64,000 nucleotides of DNA, from positions 270,187-334,186 of the forward strand of contig NZ_LFZW01000001.1 of NCBI RefSeq assembly GCF_001183985.1, written 5' to 3'. Below the pieces are notes generated by a model. That model did no database searches. It was not told where the DNA came from and was given only the letters and a program-made list of their open reading frames with translations. Both the position numbers and the translations under genes were made by a program. Position 1 is the stretch's first letter; every line of letters begins with the position of its first letter. Below are positions 8,753 to 39,172 of this stretch, one piece after another. The DNA is from Peribacillus loiseleuriae (GTDB taxonomy: Bacteria; Bacillota; Bacilli; Bacillales; DSM-1321).

Positions 8753-8800
8753 TAAAAATGAGAAACCATGCATCAACACAATTTGAGGAGGGTGTTTCAC

Positions 8801-9085
8801 TTGTTAAAACCATTAGGTGATCGCGTTATTATTGAACTAGTTCAATCTGAGGAAAAAACTGCAAGCGGTATTGTACTTCCTGATACTGCAAAAGAAAAGC
8901 CGCAAGAAGGTAAAGTAGTGGCTGCCGGCAATGGTCGTATTCTTGAAAATGGTGAACGTGTAGCTTTAGAGGTTGCCCAAGGCGATCGTATCATCTTCTC
9001 AAAATATGCTGGTACTGAAGTGAAATATGAAGGTACAGAATACTTAATTCTACGTGAAAGCGATATTTTAGCTGTTATTAGCTAA
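8801..9085 (+). CDS. groES: co-chaperonin GroES
   Basis: Ten-kDa lid of the GroEL chamber. The start is TTG 8801 ([13 protein letters not shown]), with GAGGAGGG eight bases upstream, as in B. subtilis; the frame extends further 5' but lacks family sequence there. The mobile loop [21 protein letters not shown] is intact and the 94-residue length is normal. It is first in the CIRCE-controlled groES-groEL operon, 57 bp before groEL. Confidence 0.97.
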
Positions 9086-10780
<1,695 letters not shown>

Positions 10781-10835
10781 GGCTTTTAGCCAAACATCTG
10801 AGAACCAGTCTGTATCCTAAATAGTTTGTAAATAG

Positions 10836-10871
10836 AAGACTACTTCCTAAAAAAAGGAGGTAGTCTTTTTG
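10836..10871 (+). terminator. hairpin terminator that buries the integrase RBS
   Basis: A 13-bp stem, 10,836-10,848 with 10,855-10,867, is followed by TTTTG. Its right arm contains AGGAGG (10,855-10,860), the only ribosome-binding site for the integrase TTG start at 10,869. Transcripts arriving from groEL would terminate or mask the site; a transcript starting inside the hairpin would not. Confidence 0.75.
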
Positions 10872-11780
10872 TTGTTAAAATTTGCTTTCCAAGATTTTAT
10901 TGAGGATCGAAAGTTTAGAAATACAACCAGTGTCAATATCCAAAATCACAAAGTCTTATTGGGTGGTTTCATCGACTATTGTATTTTAAACGAAGTAATC
11001 AACGTTGAAGATGTAAGTAGTGGTCACGTAAAAAGCTTTTTGATGTCATGCCAAGAGAAAGGGAATGGGGCAAGCACCATTAACACCAAGTTGCAGAAAA
11101 TCAGAGCATTTCTCAACTACATGGTTGAAGAAGGGATGATAAAGGAAAACCCTGCTAAAAAGGTTAAGCGGTTAAAAGAAGATGTAAAAATCAATGTGTT
11201 TACAGATGAACAGATTCAACAGATGCTTGGTTACTACAGAGGACTGAAAAGGCGTGAGAAGAGTTATTTTGCCTATAGAGGCTATATGATGATTGTAACG
11301 CTTCTAGGGACAGGGATTAGAAGAAAAGAAATAATCAATTTGAAATGGTCTGATGTTGATTTAACTAACTTAACCCTTTTCGTATTTGGGAAAAACAGAA
11401 GAAGAGAAACAGTTCTAATGACAGAGAAATTAGTGAAAGAGTTATCAGCCTATAGTCTATTTTGCCAAAGACACTTTAAAACACTAGGCGAATATGTGTT
11501 TGTTGATTCGAAAAATAATTCAATGACAGACAACTCTATCATGCTGGTATTTCAGAATTTACAAAAAAAGATGAATTTTTCTGATGTAAGAGTTTCTCCA
11601 CATACATTTAGACACACCTTTTGTCATCGTATGGCAATGAGTGGCATGTCAGCATTTGCAATTCAAAAAATGATGAGACACGAAAATATAGCAGTTACAA
11701 TGCGCTATGTCGCCATGTGGGGTAATGATTTGAAGGAACAAAATGATAAATTTAATCCTTTGAATACTCTTGATATATAA
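10869..11780 (+). CDS. tyrosine recombinase / island integrase
   Basis: Site-specific DNA recombinase of 303 residues, XerC/D-like. The N-terminal SAM-like core-binding domain spans about residues 5-100. The catalytic domain carries the full set: R151 (GTGIRRKEI), K175 region, H245 and R248 (HTFRHT), H271 (RHEN) and tyrosine Y280 (MRYVAM). It starts at TTG 10,869, seven bases after AGGAGG that lies in a hairpin arm. Position directly behind groEL, with the attachment repeat on its left, makes it the likely enzyme for island 1. All catalytic residues are present, so it should be active. Confidence 0.93.
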   Translation: MLLKFAFQDFIEDRKFRNTTSVNIQNHKVLLGGFIDYCILNEVINVEDVSSGHVKSFLMSCQEKGNGASTINTKLQKIRAFLNYMVEEGMIKENPAKKVKRLKEDVKINVFTDEQIQQMLGYYRGLKRREKSYFAYRGYMMIVTLLGTGIRRKEIINLKWSDVDLTNLTLFVFGKNRRRETVLMTEKLVKELSAYSLFCQRHFKTLGEYVFVDSKNNSMTDNSIMLVFQNLQKKMNFSDVRVSPHTFRHTFCHRMAMSGMSAFAIQKMMRHENIAVTMRYVAMWGNDLKEQNDKFNPLNTLDI

Positions 11781-12424
11781 AGATTTGTGTTTGCCATTAC
11801 TAATCTTTATCATGAGACATCGAATGACAAAAAGAATAAAGAAAGTAATAATGGTAATGTAATAGCATAAAGTTTAGAAATTTTTTAAAACAAATCATTG
11901 ACTTTCTAAAATCAAAATGAATTTAACGGTAAGAGGAGCAGATGTTTTCCTCCTTTTCAGATCTTAGAGGAGGGAGGCTGGTTTCAAGAAATTATCATCT
12001 TCAATATTGGGGGGGCAGGTTGTACACTTATATACAGAAACCCATATTGATATTAATTGCGATCCGAAAAGTCAAAATCAGCCGACACACTTGCATTAAT
12101 TTGAAGTTTTTGATTGTTGAACTCGATTATAAATAAAGTGTTGGATAGAGATATTAATATAAAAATAAAATATATTTTTGATGTTTTGTGGGATATCCCG
12201 CTTCACATGTACAATATATATAGGGAGCTTTTTATAAACTTGAGTCATCAGCCAAAGACATATAAAAACGCTGGTTGTATTCACTATTAAAAATGAAGCT
12301 CTGAATCGAAACTTCTACTTTGTAGGAGTTTTTTTGTTTTTATGAATTCTGAAAATAGGAAGGAGTATAGAGATAATCCAACAAGAGCAATTCAAAATTT
12401 TAATTATAAAAGGGGAAATCAACA
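11781..12424. other. 640-bp gap inside island 1
   Basis: AT-rich, with only one short weak reading frame (64 codons at 11,942). A hairpin terminator AACTTCTAC/GTAGGAGTT with T run sits at 12,310-12,335, ahead of the helicase-like gene. No protein similarity or RNA family was recognised. Confidence 0.5.
12310..12335 (+). terminator. terminator in island 1
   Basis: Nine-base-pair stem with one G-U pair, tetraloop-sized loop and seven T. It has no obvious gene directly upstream. Confidence 0.65.
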
Positions 12425-13735
12425 ATGACGACAACAATCAATGTAGTAGATGCACCGTGTGGTTATGGGAAGACATCTTGGGCAATTCAGTATATGAATA
12501 GTATGGCAACTGATTCACATCAATTCATTTATGTAACACCATTTTTAGAAGAGATTGAAAGAGTGAAACAATCTGTGACTAATCGGCAATTTTTTGACCC
12601 AGTAGCTAGTAAAGGAAAAACAAAATTAGATGATTTACACAAAATGTTGGGGGAAGGGAAAGACATTTGTACAACACATGCATTGTTCCAGATGGCAAAT
12701 GATCAAACAAGAGAGCTGTTAAGAGTAAATAGATACACTTTAATTTTGGATGAGGTCATTAATGTAATCGAACAAATCAAATTAAAGAAAGATGATTTAA
12801 GACTATTACAGAATGCTAATGCAGTAAGTATTATCGAACGAGAGAACGGACTGAAATATATCGATTGGAATGAAAATGTGGATTCAGATACTAAATATAA
12901 TGATATTAAGAATATGGCTTTAACGCATAATCTAATGTACTGCGATAACTCTGCTCTCATATGGAATTTCCCATGTGAGATTTTTTTATCGTTTCAAAAT
13001 GTTTTTATTTTAACTTATTTATTTAAAGGACAAATACAAAAGGCTTATTACGACTTGCATGATATTAGTTATAGATATTTATCTGTTAGTGAAGATTATG
13101 GTACCTATGAGCTAATCCCTTACGATGAAAGAAAGGTCTATGACAAAGAACTGTTGCGAAAAAGAATTAACATATACAATGGTCATCTTAATGATATTGG
13201 CGATAGACGGAATAGTCTTTCGAAATCATGGTTCCTGAAACCAGATAATAAAGACTTAATTGTAAAGCTAAAAAATAATGCACGGAATTACCTTATGAAT
13301 ATTTGTAAGGTTACTGGGGAAGAAGTTATGTGGACAACAATAAAAGGAGATAAAGTAAAAGGCGACAAAGGGAAAATTATGATTAAAGTTACTCCAAGGG
13401 GGTATACAAACTCGTTTGTTCCGATGACCTCTCGTGCGACCAATCAATTTAAGCTCAAAACTTATCTAGCTTATCTTGTAAATAGATACATGAATCCTAT
13501 AGAAAAGAAGTTCTTTGAACAATATGGCGTAGTAATTGATGAAGAAACTTGGGCATTATCAGAATTAGTTCAGTGGCTGTGGAGGAGTGGTATTAGGGAT
13601 GGTAATCAAATATCAGTATACATTCCAAGTAAAAGAATGAGGGATTTATTTATAAAATTTCTTAACAGTGAAGTATATGAAGAAGCACCAGAAAACGCAA
13701 TTACAAATGAACCACCAAGTGACTGGCATTTATGA
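12425..13735 (+). CDS. helicase-like P-loop ATPase of mobile-element type
   Basis: This 436-residue protein opens with a Walker A motif APCGYGKTS (residues 10-18). It is followed by a helicase Ia-like YVTPFLEEI and a Walker B-like YTLILDEV near residue 103. The C-terminal part has WLWRSGIRDG and YIPSKRMRDLF, which could supply arginine-finger residues. This order resembles diverged SF2/DEAD-like helicases carried by phages and plasmids. The exact family is not recognised; a replication or defence role is possible. AAAGGGG precedes ATG 12,425. Base composition is AT-richer than the backbone. Confidence 0.6.
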   Translation: MTTTINVVDAPCGYGKTSWAIQYMNSMATDSHQFIYVTPFLEEIERVKQSVTNRQFFDPVASKGKTKLDDLHKMLGEGKDICTTHALFQMANDQTRELLRVNRYTLILDEVINVIEQIKLKKDDLRLLQNANAVSIIERENGLKYIDWNENVDSDTKYNDIKNMALTHNLMYCDNSALIWNFPCEIFLSFQNVFILTYLFKGQIQKAYYDLHDISYRYLSVSEDYGTYELIPYDERKVYDKELLRKRINIYNGHLNDIGDRRNSLSKSWFLKPDNKDLIVKLKNNARNYLMNICKVTGEEVMWTTIKGDKVKGDKGKIMIKVTPRGYTNSFVPMTSRATNQFKLKTYLAYLVNRYMNPIEKKFFEQYGVVIDEETWALSELVQWLWRSGIRDGNQISVYIPSKRMRDLFIKFLNSEVYEEAPENAITNEPPSDWHL

Positions 13736-14243
13736 GCTAGGTAATAAGACTGCCTAAGCATACCTTGAAAACCCAGTAAAAATCTAGCTTTTAAAATGAA
13801 ATCCTTAAGAGAAAGATACTTAAATATATCATAATTGACTAAACGGAAAGGTTTCTGTGGTTGCAAAAAAGATGCATTTTAGCACTTCACTTTCACTAAG
13901 CTTGCGCTTAGCTACCGTGTACTGCTTAAAATACACCTTTTTTAGCACCACTCTTCTAATTACAGTGGATCATAAATTGTAAGAATCTAAAAATTGCACC
14001 TCATTCGAGTTAACAATCCGCTTGGAGAAAGCTTGCTTTCTACAAGAAGCAAAGAATAAGCGTAGCCAGCGTAGCGTTTCTGCGGTAGGCTCTTATATCA
14101 AGGATATGTTGTAAAAAAATACTTTATTTAGCACCTATAAACATGTCTACTTTATTTGGCACCTGGGTATACTAAATAATTTACATAATGTATAAGAACA
14201 ATTTTTTTGGTAATGCTAGTTTCTAAGAAGGAGTGAATTAAAT
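13736..14243. other. 508-bp gap with GCACC-motif repeats
   Basis: No convincing gene. The motif TTTAGCAC(C/T) recurs at 13,877, 13,941 and 14,127. A 16-bp direct repeat ACTTTATTTRGCACCT lies at 14,121-14,136 and 14,149-14,164, 28 bp apart. Short self-complementary GC-richer patches (AAGCTTGCGCTT near 13,900; TAGCCAGCGTAGCG near 14,065) stand out from the AT-rich background. The repeats could be protein-binding sites; no function is shown. Confidence 0.45.
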
Positions 14244-14510
14244 ATGACAAAAGTTGAAAAAGCATTGTTTTATGAAATTGTAGTTTGTGAGATAGAGCAT
14301 GACGGAGAGTTAGAAGAAGATATCTTTGAATTTCTAAATGTACAAATATGGATTGAAGAAGATAATCTTTTTAACTTTTTTCGCAGTATACCTGAAGAAG
14401 CAGTTTTGGAATGGCTCGAGATGTATACAGACAGTTGGAATCCAAACAGCGACATTTATATAAGGATAATAGATCAAATAAATAATTTCGAAAAAAGTGT
14501 AACAATCTAG
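14244..14510 (+). CDS. hypothetical acidic 88-residue protein
   Basis: Strong AAGGAGTG eight bases before ATG and a coherent acidic protein with no membrane segment. The sequence has aromatic-rich segments such as IWIEEDNLFNFF and AVLEWLEMYTDSW. No family recognised. It precedes an HNH endonuclease gene by about 115 bp and may be co-transcribed. A small acidic protein in an island could be an inhibitor or DNA mimic, but nothing here proves it. Confidence 0.6.
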   Translation: MTKVEKALFYEIVVCEIEHDGELEEDIFEFLNVQIWIEEDNLFNFFRSIPEEAVLEWLEMYTDSWNPNSDIYIRIIDQINNFEKSVTI

Positions 14511-14624
14511 TAGAAAATGAACACTTCTAATTAAATAGATATAAATAGGTATTATATGGTGAAGTAAAGTTGCTATATAGAAATCTAACGTTAATTCGAA
14601 CAATCATTGGAGGTATTAACTAAC

Positions 14625-15287
14625 TTGGAGAAGTTACAAGCAAAAAACGAATTTTCCCAAACAATTATTGATGGCAAAGAGTATATTAAATTCGTTACAG
14701 GAGGAAAGTATAAGGTAGAAGTGATTGTAGACAAACTTACTTGGGAGAGATATTTACACAAATTTCATTGGACAGCATTATGCAAAGATAATTATCATGT
14801 GGTGAAAACAAGTATCAATAAGCACTCGGTCAGAATACACAGAATGATAGTAGAGAATGAGTACAACGAGCTAGACTATTGGGGCAATACTGTTGACCAT
14901 ATTAACAAAAATTCACTTGACAATCGTAAAGAGAATCTTCGTATATATAATAGTAAACTTAACTCTACTAATACAACAAGCAAATACTCTTCTGAAGGAT
15001 TAAATTTAATTTACCCTCAACGTAAAAAGAAGAATGGTGAGTATGTAATTTATGGTTATAAAGTTCATACAAATGTATTTGATACGACAATATACAAAAA
15101 TTTCTCAACAGTTGAAGAAGCAATAAGTTATCGTGATAATGAAGTTCTTCCACTTATTGAACAAAAGATAGAAGAACTAAAGAAGAAAACAAGGGATATA
15201 GAATTTGAAAGAGGATTGCGAGACAAATTGATAAATAACGAAATAAATGAAGTGAGACTTATTTTAGAAAAATATGGCACTTCGTAA
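14625..15287 (+). CDS. HNH endonuclease, mobile/phage type
   Basis: The core HRMIVENEY...TVDHINKNSLDNRKENLRI is the HNH fold of phage and intron-type endonucleases (about residues 80-120 of 220). The residues after it resemble an AP2-like or NUMOD DNA-binding tail followed by a charged helix. TTG 14,625 is chosen because GGAGGT lies ten bases upstream; the frame also opens at TTG 14,607. A strong terminator follows. Such enzymes often act as homing or defence nucleases; the target is unknown. Confidence 0.8.
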   Translation: MEKLQAKNEFSQTIIDGKEYIKFVTGGKYKVEVIVDKLTWERYLHKFHWTALCKDNYHVVKTSINKHSVRIHRMIVENEYNELDYWGNTVDHINKNSLDNRKENLRIYNSKLNSTNTTSKYSSEGLNLIYPQRKKKNGEYVIYGYKVHTNVFDTTIYKNFSTVEEAISYRDNEVLPLIEQKIEELKKKTRDIEFERGLRDKLINNEINEVRLILEKYGTS

Positions 15288-15293
15288 GCCTGA

Positions 15294-15327
15294 ACCCACT
15301 CTTCAAAAGCTGGAGTGGGTTTTTTTA
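15294..15327 (+). terminator. terminator after HNH gene
   Basis: AACCCACTC/GAGTGGGTT stem with seven T. Confidence 0.85.
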
Positions 15328-15643
15328 TAGTAATGTAAATGTTATGATCGACCAAAGCTTTGTACTTAGATGCGGTTCGGTGATCCTTATCATAAATAAA
15401 AGAGGGAGTTTTATTGAATTCAGAATGAGCTAAATCAATAACAAACAAGCAAGAGAAGTATGGAATTCATTAATTACAATAAAATACTTAGATATAGAGG
15501 CGGGAATTTTAACTTTAAATCTAGAAGACCATCGTTAGGAGACCTGTAATTCGAGTTCAAGAAAATGCAGAAATAACAAATCATATAAAAGTTCAACATA
15601 TAACCCCCCCATTAAGAGGAGCGTTTTACCTATAAAAGAATAG

Positions 15644-15820
15644 ATCTATCCCATCAATTCTTTTCATTTTCACCACAAGGTATGGGAGTGTAAACGAAGA
15701 TTTATTGGCTGTAAGCAATTTATCTTTAGGTATATCCGTAAAGACGAACCGATGAATTGTAATATTCCTGCGGAAAGAATGAGTAATTTGCTTAAGGATT
15801 GGTCTAAATTTGACATTTAA
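15644..15820 (+). pseudogene. C-terminal gene remnant, unrecognised
   Basis: An open stretch of 58 codons without a start codon, ending in TAA, reads as a plausible protein tail with CKRRFIGCKQFIFRY and ERMSNLLKDWSKFDI. An in-frame TAG lies just upstream. It looks like the surviving end of a deleted gene; family unknown. The surrounding 600 bp (15,328-15,850) otherwise shows no gene. Confidence 0.35.
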
Positions 15821-15850
15821 AAGGAGCGAACCATAATCAGTTCTATTTTT

Positions 15851-15878
15851 TTGTTTGGTATACAAAAATTGGTATAAT
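15851..15878 (+). promoter_or_regulatory. candidate promoter for the AbiV-like gene
   Basis: TTGTTT at 15,851, 16-bp spacer, perfect TATAAT at 15,873-15,878, 32 bp before the chosen start. Confidence 0.5.
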
Positions 15879-15909
15879 AGGAGAAAAATAATGGTTTGGG
15901 GTGGATACA

Positions 15910-16497
15910 TTGACTGCTCTTTCTTTTGAAAAGTTAGAAGAAGCATATATCTGTGTTTATGAGAATGCAGGAGAATTATTGGAGGAATCAAGATTATTAT
16001 TCAGAAATAATAAATATGCAAGGTCATACGCTTTAGCCCAATTTGCTCATGAAGAATTAGCGAAACTACCGATTATTTATCAAGAAGCTACTAAGTCATT
16101 TTTCAAAGAAAAACATGATTGGAAAAAATTTCACAATCGTTTGAGAAGCCATGAATCTAAAAATAAGCAAAATTTCGCCTTTTATCAAATGATGTTAAAC
16201 TTTACGGGAAATGGTAGTTTGAATTTAAAAAAGGAAGAAATCAAAGACAATCTAGCATTTGTTAATCATTTGAAGAACGTTAGTATTTATACGGATATTA
16301 AAAATAACAAGTTCACTAAACCATCCAATGAAATTGGTAAAAATTTAGCGAAAACGCAATTGGAATTAGTGGAAGAAATGTTTAAAACCTTTTCCCTAAG
16401 TAGTTTTCATATTGCGGGTGGAATTAAAAAGTCTTTGGATAATGATAAGGCTAAACTAAAAAGAAAATTGTTTACGCAAGCAGGATTAATTGAATAA
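15910..16497 (+). CDS. AbiV-like HEPN-family abortive infection protein
   Basis: About 195 residues, mostly helical, soluble. The N-terminal block NAGELLEESRLLFRNNKYARSYAL...QFAHEELAKLPIIYQ matches the pattern of AbiV/HEPN proteins (alternating LL, aromatic and ARSYALA...EELAK). A basic RLRSH segment near residue 75 could correspond to a HEPN RNase-type motif. AbiV of Lactococcus blocks phage translation after infection. TTG 15,910 is chosen over GTG 15,901 because GGGGTGG lies just upstream. It has its own promoter and no obvious antitoxin partner beside it. The family call rests on pattern recognition. Confidence 0.72.
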   Translation: MTALSFEKLEEAYICVYENAGELLEESRLLFRNNKYARSYALAQFAHEELAKLPIIYQEATKSFFKEKHDWKKFHNRLRSHESKNKQNFAFYQMMLNFTGNGSLNLKKEEIKDNLAFVNHLKNVSIYTDIKNNKFTKPSNEIGKNLAKTQLELVEEMFKTFSLSSFHIAGGIKKSLDNDKAKLKRKLFTQAGLIE

Positions 16498-16695
16498 TAT
16501 GATGGGAGAACATTTCAAAGGGCTTTTGGTTGAGTACGTTAAGTACCAGTGTAGGAAGGGATTAAAAGACAGATAAAGGGGATGAAATATTGAATTGTAA
16601 ATTTAAGGGTTTTCATTGGCAAGAGTTAGTCTGGACGGCTTGTGGAGCTAATATAATTTTTCAATAGAAGTATATGTGAAGGATGCTAACAATCG

Positions 16696-16881
16696 TTATA
16701 CATCCCATTCCTTATTACAATCTGGACATTGCCATTTCAAAATTCTATCTCTTTCAACTTTAGTAAGTCCAATTTTTCTAGTGAAATGTGTGGATTTATA
16801 ATACTTTTGAGACTCTTTTGGGATAGGGTCACCTTGTAAATTAGCGTTACAATGAGGGCAAAATTCTTCAGAGTTGTTCAT
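16696..16881 (-). CDS. small zinc-ribbon protein
   Basis: About 61 residues with two Cys pairs, CPHC near the N-terminus and CPDC near the C-terminus, expected to bind one zinc. Between them is a basic helix-like segment. AGGGAG lies eight bases before the chosen ATG; a GTG three codons upstream is possible. Function unknown; such ribbons often bind nucleic acid or partner proteins. It is the only gene of island 1 on the minus strand. Confidence 0.6.
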   Translation of the reverse strand: MNNSEEFCPHCNANLQGDPIPKESQKYYKSTHFTRKIGLTKVERDRILKWQCPDCNKEWDV

Positions 16882-16957
16882 TAATAGCACTCCCTTTTAA
16901 TTAGTCTTTTATTAATGATACAGCGCTAATTGTTGCTTAGTCAAATGACAATAAAAA

Positions 16958-16991
16958 AACAGGGGCATACCCAATCTAATTGCCCCTATTT
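16958..16991. terminator. hairpin with T run
   Basis: AGGGGCA/TGCCCCT stem around ACCCAATCTAAT, with A run on the left and T run on the right, so it may serve either strand. Confidence 0.65.
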
Positions 16992-17007
16992 TAATGTAAG
17001 GTAGAAG

Positions 17008-17190
17008 CATGTTGAGATATTAAAAGCTAAAAGTAGCAAAGGGGATTCTGGTGGTTCTTTTAATCAAGTGGAAACTTGTAAAACGTGCGGTATAGGAGTA
17101 TCTGTAAAAGTTAAAGATTTTTGCATATCTAATAATGAACGATTTAAAGGAAACATCTATTGTTTTGATCATCAGAAACCTCATCTTTAG
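17008..17190 (+). pseudogene. remnant of a cysteine-rich protein
   Basis: Sixty codons without an acceptable start, ending in TAG. The translation contains ETCKTCGIGV, then KDFCISNNERFKGNIYCFDH, giving four Cys that could bind zinc. A rho-independent hairpin follows at once, suggesting this is the true 3' end of a gene whose 5' part was lost. Confidence 0.45.
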
Positions 17191-17208
17191 AAATGGATGA
17201 GGTTTTAT
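17180..17208 (+). terminator. terminator of the cysteine-rich remnant
   Basis: AACCTCATC/GATGAGGTT stem followed by TTA; it overlaps the end of the remnant. Confidence 0.65.
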
Positions 17209-17270
17209 TATGGAGTAGTGATTAAAAGGATATATCATAAATGTGTTCATTACCGATAGACTACACTTTA

Positions 17271-17388
17271 ACGGTAACGAACAGGTGCAAAATGGAATAC
17301 AGTCATATCAAGGCTTTCAAGACTGAGGTTTATTACCGTTTGACTATTACCGTAATTACTAGTAAGTTATTATTATAGATAACGGTAA
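17271..17388. promoter_or_regulatory. candidate resolvase binding sites
   Basis: The 7-mer ACGGTAA or its complement TTACCGT occurs four times just before the recombinase gene: 17,271-17,277 (+), 17,333-17,339 (-), 17,347-17,353 (-) and 17,382-17,388 (+). The last ends 13 bp before the ATG. Clustered inverted half-sites beside a small serine recombinase are what a res site or an autoregulatory operator looks like. Confidence 0.55.
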
Positions 17389-17401
17389 TGGAGTGGTTTA
17401 A

Positions 17402-17989
17402 ATGAAAATGGTTGGATATATCCGTGTTAGCAGTGAAGGTCAAAACATCGCTCGTCAAAAGAAATCTTTAAAAGAAGTAGGATGTACACACTTTTATATT
17501 GAAAAATTGAGCGGTGCTACAATGGAACGTCCAGAATTACAAAGAATGCTTGAGGAACTTGAAGTGGGTGATATGGTAATTATCCATGAAATTAGTCGGT
17601 TATCACGTTCAACTAAAGACTTATTAGCAATTGTTGAAACGATCCAGAGTAAAGGCGCAGGATTGAAGTCTATTACTGATAAATGGTTGGACCTTTCAGA
17701 TGATAACCCTATGAGTGAGCTACTATTTACTATCTTCTCAGGTCTAGCGCAGTTTGAGCGTAAGATGATTAAGCAGCGTCAAAAGGAAGGTATAGAGATA
17801 GCTAAAAGTGAAGGGAAATTCAGAGGACGTAAAACAAAGCTAATTAATGGTGGTAAGGAAGAACAACGAATGAAAGCAATAATTGAAGCCTATAAAAATG
17901 GGAAATCTATAAATGATATTCGTACAACCTTTAAGGTTGGTACAGGTACGATATACAGGATATTGGAACGTGAAGGATTGAAAAGGTAG
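17402..17989 (+). CDS. small serine recombinase (resolvase/invertase family)
   Basis: Catalyses site-specific strand exchange through a 5'-phosphoserine link. The 195 residues comprise the catalytic domain with nucleophile Ser in YIRVSSEGQ (about residue 10), the arginine motif ISRLSRSTKD, and the family block SELLFTIFSGLAQFER. A C-terminal helix-turn-helix ends in GTIYRILEREGLKR. It is complete and likely active. Small resolvases of this type serve plasmids and transposons, so this segment may have a different origin from the groEL integrase. The stop lies inside a terminator hairpin. Confidence 0.93.
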   Translation: MKMVGYIRVSSEGQNIARQKKSLKEVGCTHFYIEKLSGATMERPELQRMLEELEVGDMVIIHEISRLSRSTKDLLAIVETIQSKGAGLKSITDKWLDLSDDNPMSELLFTIFSGLAQFERKMIKQRQKEGIEIAKSEGKFRGRKTKLINGGKEEQRMKAIIEAYKNGKSINDIRTTFKVGTGTIYRILEREGLKR

Positions 17990-18004
17990 TCTATTGACTA
18001 CCTT
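17983..18004 (+). terminator. terminator overlapping the recombinase stop
   Basis: Perfect AAGGTAGTC/GACTACCTT stem with TATT loop; the stop codon lies in the left arm. Confidence 0.7.
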
Positions 18005-18235
18005 ATTCTATTTATACTCATTAATAATAAAAAAGGATAATCGTTGCTGTATTATAGAAAGGTATTAGAAGATAAAGGGTTTTACTATGATATAATGTAC
18101 ATATTTATATTAGTTTCTTGACTTTTTTGATTTTTCCTGCATTAGTTTGAATATATAGTGCTTTTACGGATATATAATGTTTAATAATACCTAGTTTATA
18201 AAAATTTGATAAAAGGATTTTAGGGAGATGAGTGT

Positions 18236-19687
18236 TTGGATAATAATCAATTGTGTTCTTTAATTGATGAATTTCGGGAAATGAATGAAAATGAGTGGGT
18301 TGAATTTAAAGTTAATAATGACGAGCCTGATTTGATTGGTCAATATTTATCGGCTCTATCTAATTCTGCTTGTTTACACAATCAAAAGTTTGGTTATTTA
18401 ATATATGGAATTGATGATAAAACCCGTGAAGTTATAGGGACTGAATTCAAACCTCGGACAAAAAAAGTTGGGAATCAAGAACTTGAGAGTTGGCTTGCGA
18501 CGATAATTGCCCCTCGTGTAGACTTTAAAATTTTTGAGTTTAAATATAATGATAAAGATTTGGTAATGTTTAAAGTGGATGCTACAAATAATATGCCGGT
18601 AAGTTTTAAAGGAATTGCATATATTAGAGTAGGGTCATACAAGAAAAAGTTAGATGAATATCCTCAGAAGGCAAGGAAGATATGGACAAAAACTAGTAAT
18701 CAAGTATTTGAAAGTCAAATTGCTTTACATTCGGTTGATGAGGATACAGTTCTAAAGCTACTTGATTATCCAAGCTATTTCAGTTTGTTAAATCAAAATT
18801 TGCCAACTGATAAGTCCGGCATTCTTAACAAACTTGAAGAAGAAAAGATGATGGTTAAGAGCGGGAAACTTTATGATATTACAAATCTAGGTGCAATTCT
18901 TTTCGCAAAAGACTTACACAGCTTTGAAAAGTTAGCTAGAAAAGCAATAAGGGTAGTTATTTACAAAGGTAAAGATAGGCTTAACGCCAAAAAAGAGCAA
19001 GTTGGTGGAAAGGGATATGCAATTGGCTTTGAAGGATTGATTAATTACATTAATGACCAACTACCAACAAATGAAGAAATCGGTGCTGTATTTAGGAAAG
19101 AAGTAAAAATGTACCCTGAACTTGCAATTCGTGAAGCTGTAGCAAATGCTATTATTCATCAAGATTTCAATGAGGTTGGTACGGGTCCCATGATAGAGAT
19201 ATTCGCAGATAGAATTGAGATTACTAATCCAGGAAAGCCTTTGATTAACTATTTAAGGCTAATTGACCATAGTCCTCAATCAAGGAATGAAAAGCTTGCA
19301 TATTTTATGAGAAGAATAAATGTGTGTGAGGAAAGGGGGAGTGGTATTGATAAAATTGTTAACTTATCTGAAGAATACCAACTACCTGCACCTAACTTTA
19401 TTGAAGGAACTAATTCCATGAAGGTTATAATGTATGCCTATAGAAAGTTATCTCATATGGACAAACAAGATAAAATTAGAGCGTGTTATCAGCATAGCTG
19501 TTTGAAATATGTATCATCAGACTATATGACTAATCAAACGTTTCGAGAACGTCTTCAAATAGCTCAAAAAAATTATTCTATTGCTTCAAGAATTATTGCA
19601 GATGCTATTGAAGCCGGATTGGTTAAAGATTACGACCCAGAAAATAAGTCGAAAAAGTATGCTAAGTATGTACCATTCTGGGCTTGA
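18236..19687 (+). CDS. AlbA_2 (Schlafen-like) / HATPase / winged-helix protein
   Basis: Soluble protein of 483 residues. The N-terminal AlbA_2 domain (about 15-140) is marked by ENEWVEFK, GYLIYGIDD and YIRVGSYKKK; this domain is related to Schlafen nucleic-acid-binding cores. A GHKL-type ATPase-like region (about 290-385) has EAVANAIIHQDF, IEIFADRIEITNPG and EERGSGIDKI. A C-terminal winged-helix-like part follows. Such proteins are described as DNA-binding regulators and recur in defence and mobile regions. The TTG start has AGGGAG upstream. Its stop codon is followed within two bases by a tandem repeat array. Confidence 0.82.
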   Translation: MDNNQLCSLIDEFREMNENEWVEFKVNNDEPDLIGQYLSALSNSACLHNQKFGYLIYGIDDKTREVIGTEFKPRTKKVGNQELESWLATIIAPRVDFKIFEFKYNDKDLVMFKVDATNNMPVSFKGIAYIRVGSYKKKLDEYPQKARKIWTKTSNQVFESQIALHSVDEDTVLKLLDYPSYFSLLNQNLPTDKSGILNKLEEEKMMVKSGKLYDITNLGAILFAKDLHSFEKLARKAIRVVIYKGKDRLNAKKEQVGGKGYAIGFEGLINYINDQLPTNEEIGAVFRKEVKMYPELAIREAVANAIIHQDFNEVGTGPMIEIFADRIEITNPGKPLINYLRLIDHSPQSRNEKLAYFMRRINVCEERGSGIDKIVNLSEEYQLPAPNFIEGTNSMKVIMYAYRKLSHMDKQDKIRACYQHSCLKYVSSDYMTNQTFRERLQIAQKNYSIASRIIADAIEAGLVKDYDPENKSKKYAKYVPFWA

Positions 19688-19689
19688 AA

Positions 19690-20076
19690 AATCTTATGTG
19701 ATCGTCATGTGATAGTTCAGATTAGATAAGTGGAAAACCAAGATATATCAAGGGAAATCTTATGTGATCGTCATGTGATAGCTCAGATTAGATAAGTGGA
19801 AAACTAAGATATATCAAGGGAAATCTTATGTGATCGTCATGTGATAGTTCAGATTAGATAAGCGGAAAACCAAGATATATCAAGGGAAATCTTATGTGAT
19901 CGTCATGTGATAGCTCAGATTAGATAAGTGGAAAACTAAGATATATCAAGGGGAATCTTATGTGATCGTTCAGATTAGATAAGTGGAAAACCAAGATATA
20001 TCAAGGGAAATCTTATGTGATCGTTCAGATTAGATAAGTGGAAAACCAAGATATATCAAGGGAAATCTTATGTGAT
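19690..20076 (+). repeat. 66/55-bp tandem repeat array after the AlbA_2 gene
   Basis: Four 66-bp units start at 19,690, 19,756, 19,822 and 19,888. Two 55-bp units start at 19,954 and 20,009, and a 13-bp partial unit starts at 20,064. Units 1 and 3 carry GTTCAG...ACCAAG and units 2 and 4 carry GCTCAG...ACTAAG, so a 132-bp pair was duplicated. The short units lack the same 11 bp. All six reading frames are closed within a unit. Each junction can pair AAGAT with ATCTT. There are no unique spacers, so it is not CRISPR. Confidence 0.95.
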
Positions 20077-20770
20077 TTTTCTCTTTCGTGATAGTTAGTA
20101 CATATGATTAGCGAAATCATACTGTTGTTCACATAAAATGAGTTGAGAAACTCATAGGCTTCCAAATTAATGTCAAGGTTAAAAGTGATTTCCTATTTGC
20201 TTAGTAATAGGTGATTTTTTAGTTAAGGTTATTATCCACAAGTTATTAAATAAATCATGGACGGAAATAATATCACCATGGCTTTCCTTATAAAATTATT
20301 GGAATTTTATATACATGGTTTTTCTTTTTACAAATTATGATATATCTGAGTTAGTTCGTACAAGGCTTAAGTTATTAATAAATGCTATGAATGAACTATG
20401 CAATACAACCACATATATAATAGAAAGAAAAATAATAAACGTTGATATAATCATGTTTTTGCTAATTTTCTATGTCATGTACAGACCGTATTACGAAGTT
20501 AATATTTCCATTTAAAACGAACATTTTCGGCACTCATAAAGGGTGTCTTTCTTTTTTTTGTGAAAACGGAGATATTATCGACTGATTACAAGGGTTTATG
20601 ATATGTATTAGGTGGTAGCTAGGATTAATGACATTGGTAATGGAAATAGTGTAATAAAAAACCAAAAGAATCTTTACATTTTTCTATAACTGCTTTATAT
20701 TAAAAATGTTAGATATAACCTAAGAAGTAGTCGATTCTATTTACAACTATAAATGATACAGTTTTTTCGC
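20077..20770. other. 694-bp right end of island 1, no gene
   Basis: Contains two hairpins (TATGATT/AATCATA at 20,103-20,121 and ATGAGTT/AACTCAT at 20,138-20,155), a single perfect DnaA box at 20,232-20,240 and a terminator-like hairpin with a long T run at 20,529-20,560. A 66-codon frame at 20,315 lacks a ribosome-binding site. Integrase arm sites would be expected here but were not recognised. Confidence 0.5.
20529..20560 (+). terminator. terminator-like hairpin
   Basis: GGCACTC pairs with GGGTGTC using two G-U pairs, then a T-rich run. Confidence 0.5.
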
Positions 20771-20894
20771 ATCAGTAGCTGCAATGTTCTTAACAACAGA
20801 AGCAGTAGTTGCTGACAAACCAGAACCTGCTGGTGCTGGCGGCATGGGTATGCCTGATATGGGCGGCATGGGTGGAATGGGCGGCATGATGTAA
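20771..20894 (+). repeat. second copy of the groEL 3' end (island 1/2 junction)
   Basis: Identical over 124 bp to the end of groEL, including the last 40 codons and TAA. Upstream bases (TTTTTTCGC) and downstream bases (TAAGCCGC) differ from groEL. It is both the right attachment site of island 1 and the left boundary of island 2. Confidence 0.93.
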
Positions 20895-20903
20895 TAAGCC
20901 GCT

Positions 20904-20966
20904 TCAACCCTTGATATATAAGGGGTTGTATGTAAGGTGAAAGTGAAATGCTAACATTTTGCTAAC
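20904..20966. promoter_or_regulatory. island 2 left arm: hairpin and TGCTAAC boxes
   Basis: An inverted repeat CAACCCTT/AAGGGGTTG is followed by the paired box TGCTAACATTTTGCTAAC at 20,949-20,966, which overlaps the 3' end of the integrase remnant. The same paired box recurs at 26,985 and, with one change, at 35,763. This fits an integrase arm-type site. Confidence 0.55.
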
Positions 20967-21435
20967 ATAAAGGATCATAATCGAGGCTTCTCATTAGTTG
21001 TGCAAACTTTTGGGAAGCTTCCTTTTTCATTTCTTTTGTCACGTGGAGATAGACATTCTTGGTGATTTGATCATCTGAATGGCCAAGTCTATCTATAATT
21101 TGTTCAAGTGCGATATCTGCTGCTGCTAAAAGCGGAGTGTGTGTATGTCTCAATGAGTGAGGTGTTAAGTCAGGGTTTAATTTTGCGATTGCAAGAAGTC
21201 TAGCCATCCTAAGTTGTACCATTTTAATAACGATAGGATATCCGGGGTGTCTCTCTGTTTTAGCAAAGATGAAATCTTGATTATAGTAAGCGTTACCTAA
21301 CTGCTGAATGATTTTCGCTTGAGTTTCTTTGTTAAGGCTCAAAGCTTTGATTACATCTTCATCCACAACAATTTTTCGTTTAGATTTTTCGTTTTTGGTG
21401 TCACCAATTGCATTCAAGGTTCTTAATGATTTCAT
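20962..21435 (-). pseudogene. truncated phage-type tyrosine integrase
   Basis: C-terminal 157 residues of a tyrosine recombinase. HSLRHTHTPLL supplies the second His and Arg, RLGHSD the later His, and NVYLHVTKEMK the tyrosine. The N-terminal DNA-binding domain and the first catalytic arginine are missing, so it is inactive. Serine is usual where HTHTPLL has proline. On its 5' side it is fused to the tail of an unrelated gene read on the plus strand. Confidence 0.88.
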
Positions 21436-37048: not shown

Positions 37049-39172
37049 ATGGAATTTAACCATAAACAACCGGAATTAGAAGTCAGAGTCAAGAACATCA
37101 TTGAAGTGGATGGGTTAAAATTTAAAGATTTGAATAACAATGGGAAACTAGATCCTTATAAGGATTGGCGTTTAAGCCCGAAAGAGCGTGCAGAGAACCT
37201 TGTTTCATTGATGAATATTGATGAAAAGATCGGTATGATGCTGATTAATACGCGTAAAATGGGGCTTTCTCAGGAAGATAAGGAAAAGACAAGTCATGAT
37301 GGTATATTAGATGAAGCGATTGTGGAAAAAGGGGAAAATATATTCGCCGCATCAAAAATATATGGAACAACACATACCATCGAGAAAAGGAATTTAAGAC
37401 ACTTCATTTTAAGAGACAACTTTAGTCCAGCAGAAATGGCCGAGTGGATTAATAAAATGAATGAAGTTGCTGAGGGAACCCGTTTAGGTATTCCTTGCTT
37501 GATTACATCTAATTCAAGAAATGAAAATGCAGAACCTATTTTTGGTATGAATGATGCAGGTGGAATTTTCTCTACATGGCCTGGAACCCTAGGACTTGCA
37601 GCGGCAGCACAGGGAGATATTAAAAACGGTGGAGATGCATCACTTATTAGCGAATTTGCTAAAATCGCTCGCGAAGAGTGGGATGCTGCGGGTATCAGAA
37701 AAGGTTATATGTACATGGCGGATACTGTTACAGATCCAAGATGGCAACGAACGTATGGTACATTTGGAGAAGATCCAGCATTTATTTCTGATGCTATTGG
37801 TCGCCTTATCGACGGATTCCAAGGCGAGGAATTAGGGAAAAATAGTATTGCAATGACAACGAAGCATTTTCCTGGTGGAGGAGCAAGAGAAAATGGATTT
37901 GATCCTCATTATAAAGAAGGGAAATGGAATCTTTACCCAACTCCAGGAAGCTTAGAAAAATATCACTTACCACCATTTAGAGCAGCGGTGGAACATGGTA
38001 CATCATCTATTATGCCATATTATTCTATACCAAGTATCAAGAAGAGTGTGGTACAAGAGTTCGAGGGTGAAGACATTCCATTCGAAGAGGTAGGCTTCAC
38101 ATTCAATCACTATTTCATTAACCATATTCTAAGAGGAAAACTTGGATTTAAAGGCTATATCAATAGTGACAGCGGCATTGTGAATAATATGAGCTGGGGC
38201 GTAGAAGAATTAAGTGAGGCTGAACGTTTTGCTAAGGCAGTCAATGCTGGGACAGATATCGTTGCTGACACAAATGATATAGAAAATCTTAAAATTGCTA
38301 TTAGCAAAGGCTGGATTAGCGAAAAGCGTATTAATGAAGCGAATGTACGACTCCTTACAGAAATGTTTACTTTAGGTATTTTCGATGATCGTACATATAA
38401 TTCGCCAAAAGAGGCTACAGCTGTAGTTAGCAACACAGCGAATTGGGAAGCAGCTTATGAAGGGCATAAAAAATCTGTAACGATCCTTAAAAACCAAAAT
38501 GAGACGTTACCATTAACAGCTGAAAAGCTTAATAATAAAAAGATTTATGTAGAAGTATTACACAAGGAAGTAGAACGAGCAACAAAGTATACTGAAAAGG
38601 CAAGAAAAGAATGTCAAGAGCTCAGCCAATTTACGATGACTGATAACTATGAAGAAGCTGATGTAGCGATCATGTTCTTACATCCGAAATCTGGTTCTTA
38701 TTTCAACGCGACACCTGGACTATTAGAGCTTGAGGTTTGTGAGGATAAAGTAGTGTCAGCTTTAGATGGCTCACTGTATCAGGAAACGACTATAACTGGT
38801 ATGGATCATCTAAAAGAAGTGACCAACAACCTCCATAGCCGTGGTGGAAAAGTCGTTATCAGTGTTAATGTAACATTGCCATGGATACTTGGAAATATTG
38901 AACCAATGGCAGATGCATTAATCGCTGGATATGATACCTTCTATAATGCACAGCTTGAGGTTATCGCAGGTAATAGTAAACCAGTAGGTGTTTTACCATT
39001 AACATTACCAGCGAGTGAAGATGTAATTGCGGTTCGTCAGAATGGTGAATGTGTGTCTAGAAACGATGTACCGGGCTATGATAAGGACAAGTATATGCCT
39101 AAAGGACTCAGCTATGCATATAAGGATAGTGATGGTAATATTTATAAGCTTGGTCATGGACTAAGATATTAA
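37049..39172 (+). CDS. glycoside hydrolase family 3 beta-glucosidase-like enzyme
   Basis: Protein of 707 residues, full length for GH3, without a signal peptide and hence cytoplasmic. The (beta/alpha)8 domain contains TKHFPGGGARENG and the catalytic Asp region GFKGYINSDSGIVNN. The alpha/beta sandwich domain follows from about residue 470 (SVTILKNQNETLPL). DLNNNGKLDPYKDW at residues 28-41 resembles a calcium-binding loop; it is unusual so near the N-terminus. AAGGAGG precedes the ATG. It likely hydrolyses imported beta-glucosides; no sugar transporter lies next to it. Confidence 0.88.
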   Translation: MEFNHKQPELEVRVKNIIEVDGLKFKDLNNNGKLDPYKDWRLSPKERAENLVSLMNIDEKIGMMLINTRKMGLSQEDKEKTSHDGILDEAIVEKGENIFAASKIYGTTHTIEKRNLRHFILRDNFSPAEMAEWINKMNEVAEGTRLGIPCLITSNSRNENAEPIFGMNDAGGIFSTWPGTLGLAAAAQGDIKNGGDASLISEFAKIAREEWDAAGIRKGYMYMADTVTDPRWQRTYGTFGEDPAFISDAIGRLIDGFQGEELGKNSIAMTTKHFPGGGARENGFDPHYKEGKWNLYPTPGSLEKYHLPPFRAAVEHGTSSIMPYYSIPSIKKSVVQEFEGEDIPFEEVGFTFNHYFINHILRGKLGFKGYINSDSGIVNNMSWGVEELSEAERFAKAVNAGTDIVADTNDIENLKIAISKGWISEKRINEANVRLLTEMFTLGIFDDRTYNSPKEATAVVSNTANWEAAYEGHKKSVTILKNQNETLPLTAEKLNNKKIYVEVLHKEVERATKYTEKARKECQELSQFTMTDNYEEADVAIMFLHPKSGSYFNATPGLLELEVCEDKVVSALDGSLYQETTITGMDHLKEVTNNLHSRGGKVVISVNVTLPWILGNIEPMADALIAGYDTFYNAQLEVIAGNSKPVGVLPLTLPASEDVIAVRQNGECVSRNDVPGYDKDKYMPKGLSYAYKDSDGNIYKLGHGLRY

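Follow-up and report, generated by a model that had tools for sequence, protein, structure and literature searches.

Within the 64,000-nucleotide stretch of Peribacillus loiseleuriae DNA analysed here (the window), a gene for a Schlafen-like protein is followed by a tandem array of short units. The gene is preceded by groES-groEL, a tyrosine recombinase, an HNH protein, AbiV and a resolvase and is followed by a truncated integrase; the region behind groES-groEL (8768-21435) is a hotspot for mobile islands. The features, in window coordinates, are:

10869-11780: tyrosine recombinase
12425-13735: Cas3/DEAD-like fragment
14607-15287: HNH protein
15901-16497: AbiV
17402-17989: resolvase
18236-19687, plus strand: Schlafen-like protein, 483 aa, TTG start (Pfam, AlphaFold, Foldseek)
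19569-19613, plus strand: recognition helix codons, including Tyr447 and Ser448 (model helix 444-459 starts here)
19652-19660, plus strand: wing codons 473-475 (Lys-Lys-Tyr), covarying with motif positions 1-2
19689-20076, plus strand: whole array, non-coding (Tandem Repeats Finder and ORF check)
19694-19759, plus strand: unit 1, 66 bp, type A; sites at 19695 and 19706
19760-19825, plus strand: unit 2, 66 bp, type B; sites at 19761 and 19772
19826-19891, plus strand: unit 3, 66 bp, type A; sites at 19827 and 19838
19892-19957, plus strand: unit 4, 66 bp, type B; sites at 19893 and 19904
19958-20012, plus strand: unit 5, 55 bp, type A; single site at 19959, one 11-bp repeat missing
20013-20067, plus strand: unit 6, 55 bp, type A; single site at 20014
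20068-20080, plus strand: 13-bp stub with the eleventh and last site at 20069
20962-21435: truncated integrase

The protein contains an SLFN_AlbA_2 domain (PF04326, residues 18-139, E 4.1e-19) and a GHKL-type HATPase_c_4 domain (PF13749, residues 315-399, E 2.4e-24), as the initial annotation had recognized, with a winged-helix-like stretch between them. In the AlphaFold model, computed with 32 relatives as input (pLDDT 84.4, pTM 0.67), the chain ends in a winged helix at about residues 410-483, formed by helices 410-426, 433-440 and 444-459 followed by a β-wing. Foldseek matched the model best with 3lmm (E 3.7e-19) and then with human SLFN14 and SLFN13 (E 6e-5 to 2e-4); since the r.m.s.d. is large over the whole chain, the match is domain-wise. 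PADLOC returned only weak, partial matches for the gene, and Pfam found no recombinase domain in the protein. Three acidic positions form a putative Glu-Glu-Asp triad, with E18 and E23 kept in 81 of 82 rows and position 61 occupied by Asp in 64, Asn in 15 and Ser in 2. E18, E23 and D61 presumably correspond to the nuclease triad of mammalian Schlafens.

With an SLFN_AlbA_2 domain, a GHKL-type ATPase and then a winged helix, the protein has the domains of bacterial Schlafens. The same domain order (SLFN_AlbA_2, a GHKL 'minimal histidine kinase' and a wHTH) is given for the Schlafens of BREX and BREX-related loci in the available part of a 2026 BREX survey, in which proteins of this architecture are predicted to be Schlafen RNases and are counted close to BREX-type loci in at least 1,017 taxa (PMC12839542). 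That part of the survey concerns the protein only, and the paper contains the term 'direct repeat' 0 times; the DNA element and its covariation are added here.

The array begins two bases past the stop codon (TGA, 19685-19687). Tandem Repeats Finder delimits it at 19689-20076 (period 66, 6.2 copies, score 580) and, together with the motif phase by which the unit starts were set, bears out the four 66-bp units, two 55-bp units and 13-bp stub of the initial annotation. Type A (AGTT...AACC) and type B (AGCT...AACT) alternate A, B, A, B, and the units differ further by single letters; the two 55-bp units, identical in sequence and both type A, lack the same 11 bp. The AAGAT and ATCTT noted there are indeed present on either side of the unit junction. 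The array was also correctly called non-coding: no ORF wholly within it exceeds 24 aa, and ORFs of 43 and 46 aa overlap its ends.

At the start of each 66-bp unit stand two 11-bp direct repeats that the initial annotation had missed (TTATGTGATCG and TCATGTGATAG), and 44 bp follow them. The 55-bp units differ from the 66-bp units by one such repeat, and the puzzle of the two unit lengths is thereby solved, as 11 bp correspond to one putative binding site. In total, the array holds eleven copies of YATGTGAT.

In the 5.43-Mb genome the array matches only itself (E<=1e-3), phage and plasmid records gave no blastn match, and a 32-base exact pattern of the array matched no viral contig. The sole same-genus match, 27 bp at 93% to the spacer of the units, belongs to an unrelated intergenic repeat and was set aside; it lies at locus L011 (G012:C60, about 37,700-38,050) in an intergenic run of imperfect repeats like ATATCAACGGAAAACCAAG.

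A paired and phased element among relatives of the gene

A protein search supplied the best 120 of 7,999 scored candidates. The homologue loci comprise the best 80 of 577 from genome contigs and 15 from viral contigs, 95 in all, from which the distant and partial L107 and L108 were dropped; counts over 94 loci refer to the remaining 93 plus the window.

The array in the window is an amplified copy of a short element carried by most examined relatives of the gene. In the 60 bp after the stop codon, a 9-mer is repeated at +11 (at least 8/9 identities) at 53 of 94 loci, the window included, and repeats of this type at other offsets from 7 to 15 occur at 0 or 1 locus each. The same repeat at +11 is found at 6/92 loci in the 60 bp upstream of the gene, at 1/92 at +600 and in 48/4,700 shuffles. 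Under a strict definition, which requires two 8-bp direct repeats at a spacing of exactly 11 bp, the element is present within about 140 bp downstream at 66 of 93 loci, upstream only at eight and on neither side at 19; a relaxed search was still empty at L049, L099, L103 and L105. Homologues generally lacking downstream repeats, which the initial annotation had named as evidence against its proposal of a functional protein-repeat pair, are thus not what is found.

A second pair is present at many loci. At the 45 with two measurable pairs, the pair-to-pair distance is 65-67 bp in 18, 76-77 bp in two, 86-90 bp in 12, 97-101 bp in seven and 109-111 bp in four, and two loci are off phase (104 and 118 bp). 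The distances are therefore mostly 66, 77, 88, 99 or 110 bp, i.e., the pairs lie on one face of the helix. At a period of 11.0 the phasing vector has a length of 0.81 (45 loci); without the 65-67 bp class it is 0.70 (27 loci), a value attained in none of 20,000 uniform draws, and periods from 10.5 to 11.25 fit nearly equally. The commonest distance among homologues is also the unit length in the window, 66 bp. The sites share the orientation of the gene, upstream copies exist too, and at several loci elements in the same orientation stand on both sides of the gene.

The IHF-like WATCAANNNNTTR (at most one mismatch) occurs in the spacers of 23 of 73 loci, about threefold over 20 shuffles (mean 6.9, highest 14), and on the reverse strand, where there is no shuffle baseline, in 18 of 73. 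Read from sequence, this enrichment fits a bent complex. It may also be caused by an inverted half-site, since ATCAA is also the reverse of TTGAT in the site.

Two clusters of 11-bp direct repeats around a spacer are likewise found in parC-type centromeres, where the repeats occupy one helix face and ParR binds while ParM pulls. A partition site of this type would call for such partners, but Pfam finds neither a ParR-type (RHH) binder nor a ParM-type ATPase here.

Most homologues have a single element of two pairs, so the large array is not the general layout. Two or three elements in tandem are present at L033, L064, L082 and L084, which makes the array in the window the extreme of a tendency. 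It is conceivable, if on balance doubtful, that this array is a tandem repeat without any function beyond that of one ancestral element: more than one element occurs in only a few homologues, and the A, B, A, B order and the two identical 55-bp units resemble slippage or unequal exchange. Against this, the site sequence is preserved throughout, as TATGTGATCG or CATGTGATAG in ten of the eleven copies and as TATGTGAT in the last one, and the family-wide element is untouched by such a reading.

Covariation of site letters with residues of the winged helix

The repeat itself varies among relatives. It could be called at 82 of 100 loci, as ATTTGA in 28, ATGTGA in 22, GCTTGA in 12, ATGTAA in six and other forms in 14. 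With a motif finder restricted to G/T for position 3 and to G/A for position 5, G at position 3 goes with Tyr447 in 28/28 loci and T with other residues in 54/54, while A at position 5 goes with Pro448 in 6/6 and G with Ala/Ser448 in 76/76. Positions 1-2 track residues 473 and 475 less strictly, a rule based on Arg, Lys or Pro at 473 accounting for 58 + 19 of 82 with five exceptions. Residues 447 and 448 lie at the start of the predicted recognition helix and residues 473-475 in the wing, and these are the two parts with which a winged helix touches DNA.

Changes in both traits were traced on a tree built without the winged helix. Tyr447 and G3 change six times each, and all four supported independent pairs are concordant; the sign test (p 0.125) is not significant because the independent pairs are too few. 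Pro448/A5 shows four changes and three independent pairs (p 0.25).

The rule was further applied to loci outside its derivation. Ten plasmid loci, picked for variety from 61 records, all carry the predicted letters, nine downstream of the gene and one (L151) upstream, the test being lopsided since nine of the ten belong to the majority (non-Tyr) class. L151, the sole Tyr-Pro plasmid locus, has ATGTAAC twice, 75 bp apart; L146 has the predicted letters in the second of its two pairs only, and at several plasmid loci one site of a pair has decayed. A second set was drawn from the 18 loci at which no motif had been called; it comprised 14 of them (all but L100, L102, L104 and L112) and was not blind, as their downstream DNA had already been inspected. 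Here, the predicted letters were found at phased distances, partly as single sites, at eight of the 14 (L019, L031, L034, L036, L038, L041, L047 and L101). L035 (Tyr447-Thr448) carries TATGTCAT twice downstream, and its C at position 5 is a possible third letter of the code, while L051 has an odd TATTTGCT. Overall, the predicted letters are present in 18 of the 24 further loci, in some only in part.

Three Bacillota loci (L072, L118 and L120) have AACTTGC as the site in place of ...TTGA. In the covariation table, C occupies position 6 in three rows, and the protein has Gln438 in each of them.

Because the element is common among relatives and its letters track DNA-reading residues, it is very probable that the gene takes the binding sites of its product along when it moves. 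It is the covariation that points to sequence-specific sites read by the encoded protein. The C-terminal winged helix would read the 8-bp site, with the recognition helix facing the GTGA half and the wing the 5′ letters.

The initial annotation had proposed a functional pair of protein and repeat, either as iterated binding sites or as an RNA decoy or antitoxin. The phased spacing and the residue-letter covariation argue for DNA sites read by the protein rather than a type III antitoxin-like RNA. The first guess thus appears right in kind and wider than the window, as the elements of the homologues suggest that a defence-type gene family carries its own phased DNA sites.

In type III toxin-antitoxin systems, 36-nt-type RNA repeats upstream of the toxin fold into pseudoknots, and the window resembles them in having a gene beside tandem non-coding repeats. 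In contrast, the array here is downstream, Rfam gave no match over 17900-20962, and in place of a ToxN/AbiQ-type fold the only domains identified by Pfam and Foldseek are Schlafen and GHKL. A 3′ RNA transcribed from the repeats that binds or inhibits the protein is therefore very improbable, even though the sites lie in the orientation of the gene behind its stop codon and A-form RNA also has 11 bp per turn. Among 11 elements that were folded (z -2.67 to +1.12), three, the window's included and all of the ATGTGA type, fold more than 1.8 s.d. better than shuffles, but the other eight do not and there is no common structure. Short direct repeats one helical turn apart, variable spacers, sites that occur upstream of the gene too and letters that covary with a DNA-type recognition helix also speak against it, and the RNA decoy or type III antitoxin was rejected.

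Genomic settings and possible roles of the element

The gene is patchily distributed. Within the genus it was found in 1 of 36 genomes, within the family in 1 of 43, within the order in 1 of 397 and within the phylum in 4 of 398, counts that each include the genome of the window; one of the four phylum carriers is split in two pieces. At the DNA level, 4 of 5,426 E. coli genomes match, and in these the gene lies within larger satellite-type islands with retron and P4-like genes.

A Pfam scan of the first or last 420 residues of neighbouring proteins identified HSDR_N in 18/62 and ResIII in 21/62 of the first plus-strand genes behind the element, and Methylase_S in 18/61 of those before it. The gene is also found between a DUF1156 methylase and a PLD nuclease (L113; L027 has a DUF1156/PLD-type system likewise), on plasmids and between housekeeping genes. 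In Aliarcobacter (L146) the element precedes hsdS, not hsdR, and L112 lies beside satellite-phage integrases with no element called there. Two cyanobacterial loci (L021 and L028) have neighbours that by eye are TniQ-like and TnsC-like, and are possibly transposon cargo. A plasmid homologue from Cereibacter (L150) is annotated as MloB, presumably the 'M-linked ORF B' of type I R-M loci, and the gene indeed stands inside many type I R-M operons. A conserved small ORF behind the element was considered and rejected: among 897 compared, the larger clusters are antisense hsdR-type pieces and the plus-strand ones pair two related loci.

From these data we infer three possible functions, an operator (most likely), a DNA tether for the Schlafen nuclease, or a mobility site. 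Our preferred reading, to which we assign a probability of about 0.6, is that the array consists of eleven putative binding sites (TATGTGAT/CATGTGAT) for the protein of the gene just upstream, on which a phased complex would form, most likely with the function of an operator. A pair would consist of two sites separated by one helical turn, and pairs whole turns apart would present one DNA face. The DNA between pairs is often bend-prone (IHF-like), and this layout would let multiple GHKL dimers join in one complex. Gene and element would move together. The complex would keep the locus quiet, repressing its own gene where the element precedes the start codon and the neighbouring restriction gene where it sits between the two, and the AlbA_2 domain, a putative nuclease, might be released on phage attack.

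An operator is favoured because the sites are close to start codons and are kept there despite an insertion. Upstream elements end 9-14 bp before the start codon at eight loci (L014, L016, L024, L043, L046, L050, L069 and L076). At 18 loci an hsdR-like gene, assigned by its N-terminus rather than by individual Pfam searches, stands behind the element; the distance from the last site to its start codon is 18-20 bp in seven, 30-33 bp in five and 10 bp in one; the remaining five have it at 22, 27, 37, 59 and 63 bp. At L059 and L074 the second pair is at -29/-18 and -30/-19 of hsdR despite about 480 bp between the pairs. The ~480-bp insertions at these two loci share a 69-aa ORF.

An operator of whichever gene lies downstream was rejected as a general rule. 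The downstream element is present at 17 of 27 loci with a minus-strand neighbour, about as often as with a distant plus-strand neighbour (14/22), at 32/40 with a close plus-strand neighbour and at 3/4 with none. Where no co-directional gene follows, there is no downstream gene for the element to control as an operator, and an upstream copy is absent from most such loci. The lack of a sigma-70-type signal in the spacers and the position before hsdS in Aliarcobacter also weigh against an operator.

A close parallel is RptR, a regulator tied to type I R-M loci that binds three 9-bp direct repeats containing TAGCTA in a promoter and represses it, as described in the accessible part of the report (PMC12255303). 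According to the same part, RptR is a small, separate homodimer with a 6-bp palindrome upstream of rptR (PMC12255303), whereas here a large Schlafen/GHKL protein goes with an 8-bp site that is not a palindrome and in most cases follows the stop codon of the gene itself.

That downstream elements occur whatever the orientation of the next gene would suit a different role, in which the element docks the idle Schlafen nuclease beside its own gene until loss of the sites, or a competitor such as phage DNA or phage DNA-binding proteins, releases it. Such tethering is possible but rather unlikely. The element follows the gene into R-M operons, the DUF1156/PLD-type system, E. coli islands, plasmids and housekeeping settings; the spacers carry no promoter signal, sigma-70-type promoters not being enriched (72 spacers, mean z -0.09 ± 0.10, with approximate weights and mixed phyla); and an array with many copies, such as that of the window, would make for a larger sink. 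However, sites flush with start codons are better explained by expression control, the nuclease activity of the subfamily is putative, and we know of no precedent for a nuclease held idle by specific DNA sites of its own gene.

The patchy occurrence of the gene in unrelated contexts, and the same-orientation elements that flank it at several loci, could also reflect a single-gene mobile cassette whose phased sites and bent spacer are recombined in trans, with arrays as by-products. This we consider improbable: the covariation indicates that the site is read by the protein of the gene, in which no recombinase domain is present; no common recombinase stands beside the gene; and there is no empty site for comparison, the sole candidate (G429) being alone in its genus.

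Copies of the element separate from the gene bear on these roles as well. A pattern of one pair plus a third site, the latter allowed at 64-94 bp, was found in viral contigs in 16 stretches as TATTTGAY, four as TATGTGAY and two as TTGCTTGAY, compared with 2, 0 and 0 for permuted or reversed controls. Three of these stretches are by the gene (L141, L142 and L125, where the C-terminus of the family ends the first 107 bases). The other 19 (17 distinct: L121-L124, L126-L131, L133, L134 and L136-L140) have no homologue in the flank and, for 17, none in the whole record, though records may be incomplete. In 16 of the 17 distinct elements the third site lies at 64-67, 74-77 or 87-88 bp (phasing p 0.00025). 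Seven of the 17 fall inside a predicted ORF, where chance or coding constraint may contribute; the element of L127 follows a DNA methyltransferase/DUF4942 gene and that of L129 adjoins a replication gene. Arrays elsewhere without the gene, a finding that the initial annotation would have counted against itself, are thus partly borne out by these phased viral elements, while the array of the window has no genome or blastn match elsewhere. No gene-less element was found in 398 Bacillota genomes, a negative that says little because the pattern omits the CATGTGAT form of the window and the control was also 0.

The viral copies may serve as decoys or as operators for phage genes, or may be what is left of a former gene unit; decoys would fit the tethering of an idle nuclease. 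A bolder view, in which defence genes across bacteria carry a fixed phased element with a two-residue code that serves as a 'DNA antitoxin', a safety catch for the nuclease, with phage copies as decoys or triggers, seems to us rather unlikely. While the family-wide element, its spacing and its covariation with the protein are shown here, we infer for the preferred operator the binding itself along with the oligomer, repression and nuclease release. Our literature search found no published description of the element; preprints on bacterial Schlafens, which were outside its reach, may describe it.

Bacterial Schlafens are increasingly recognised as anti-phage proteins, and the element may bear on how a potentially suicidal Schlafen nuclease is kept quiet. 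It goes with the gene in many phyla and its site is predictable from two residues, which makes the proposed recognition directly testable. If the viral copies are decoys, they would represent a new route of counter-defence.
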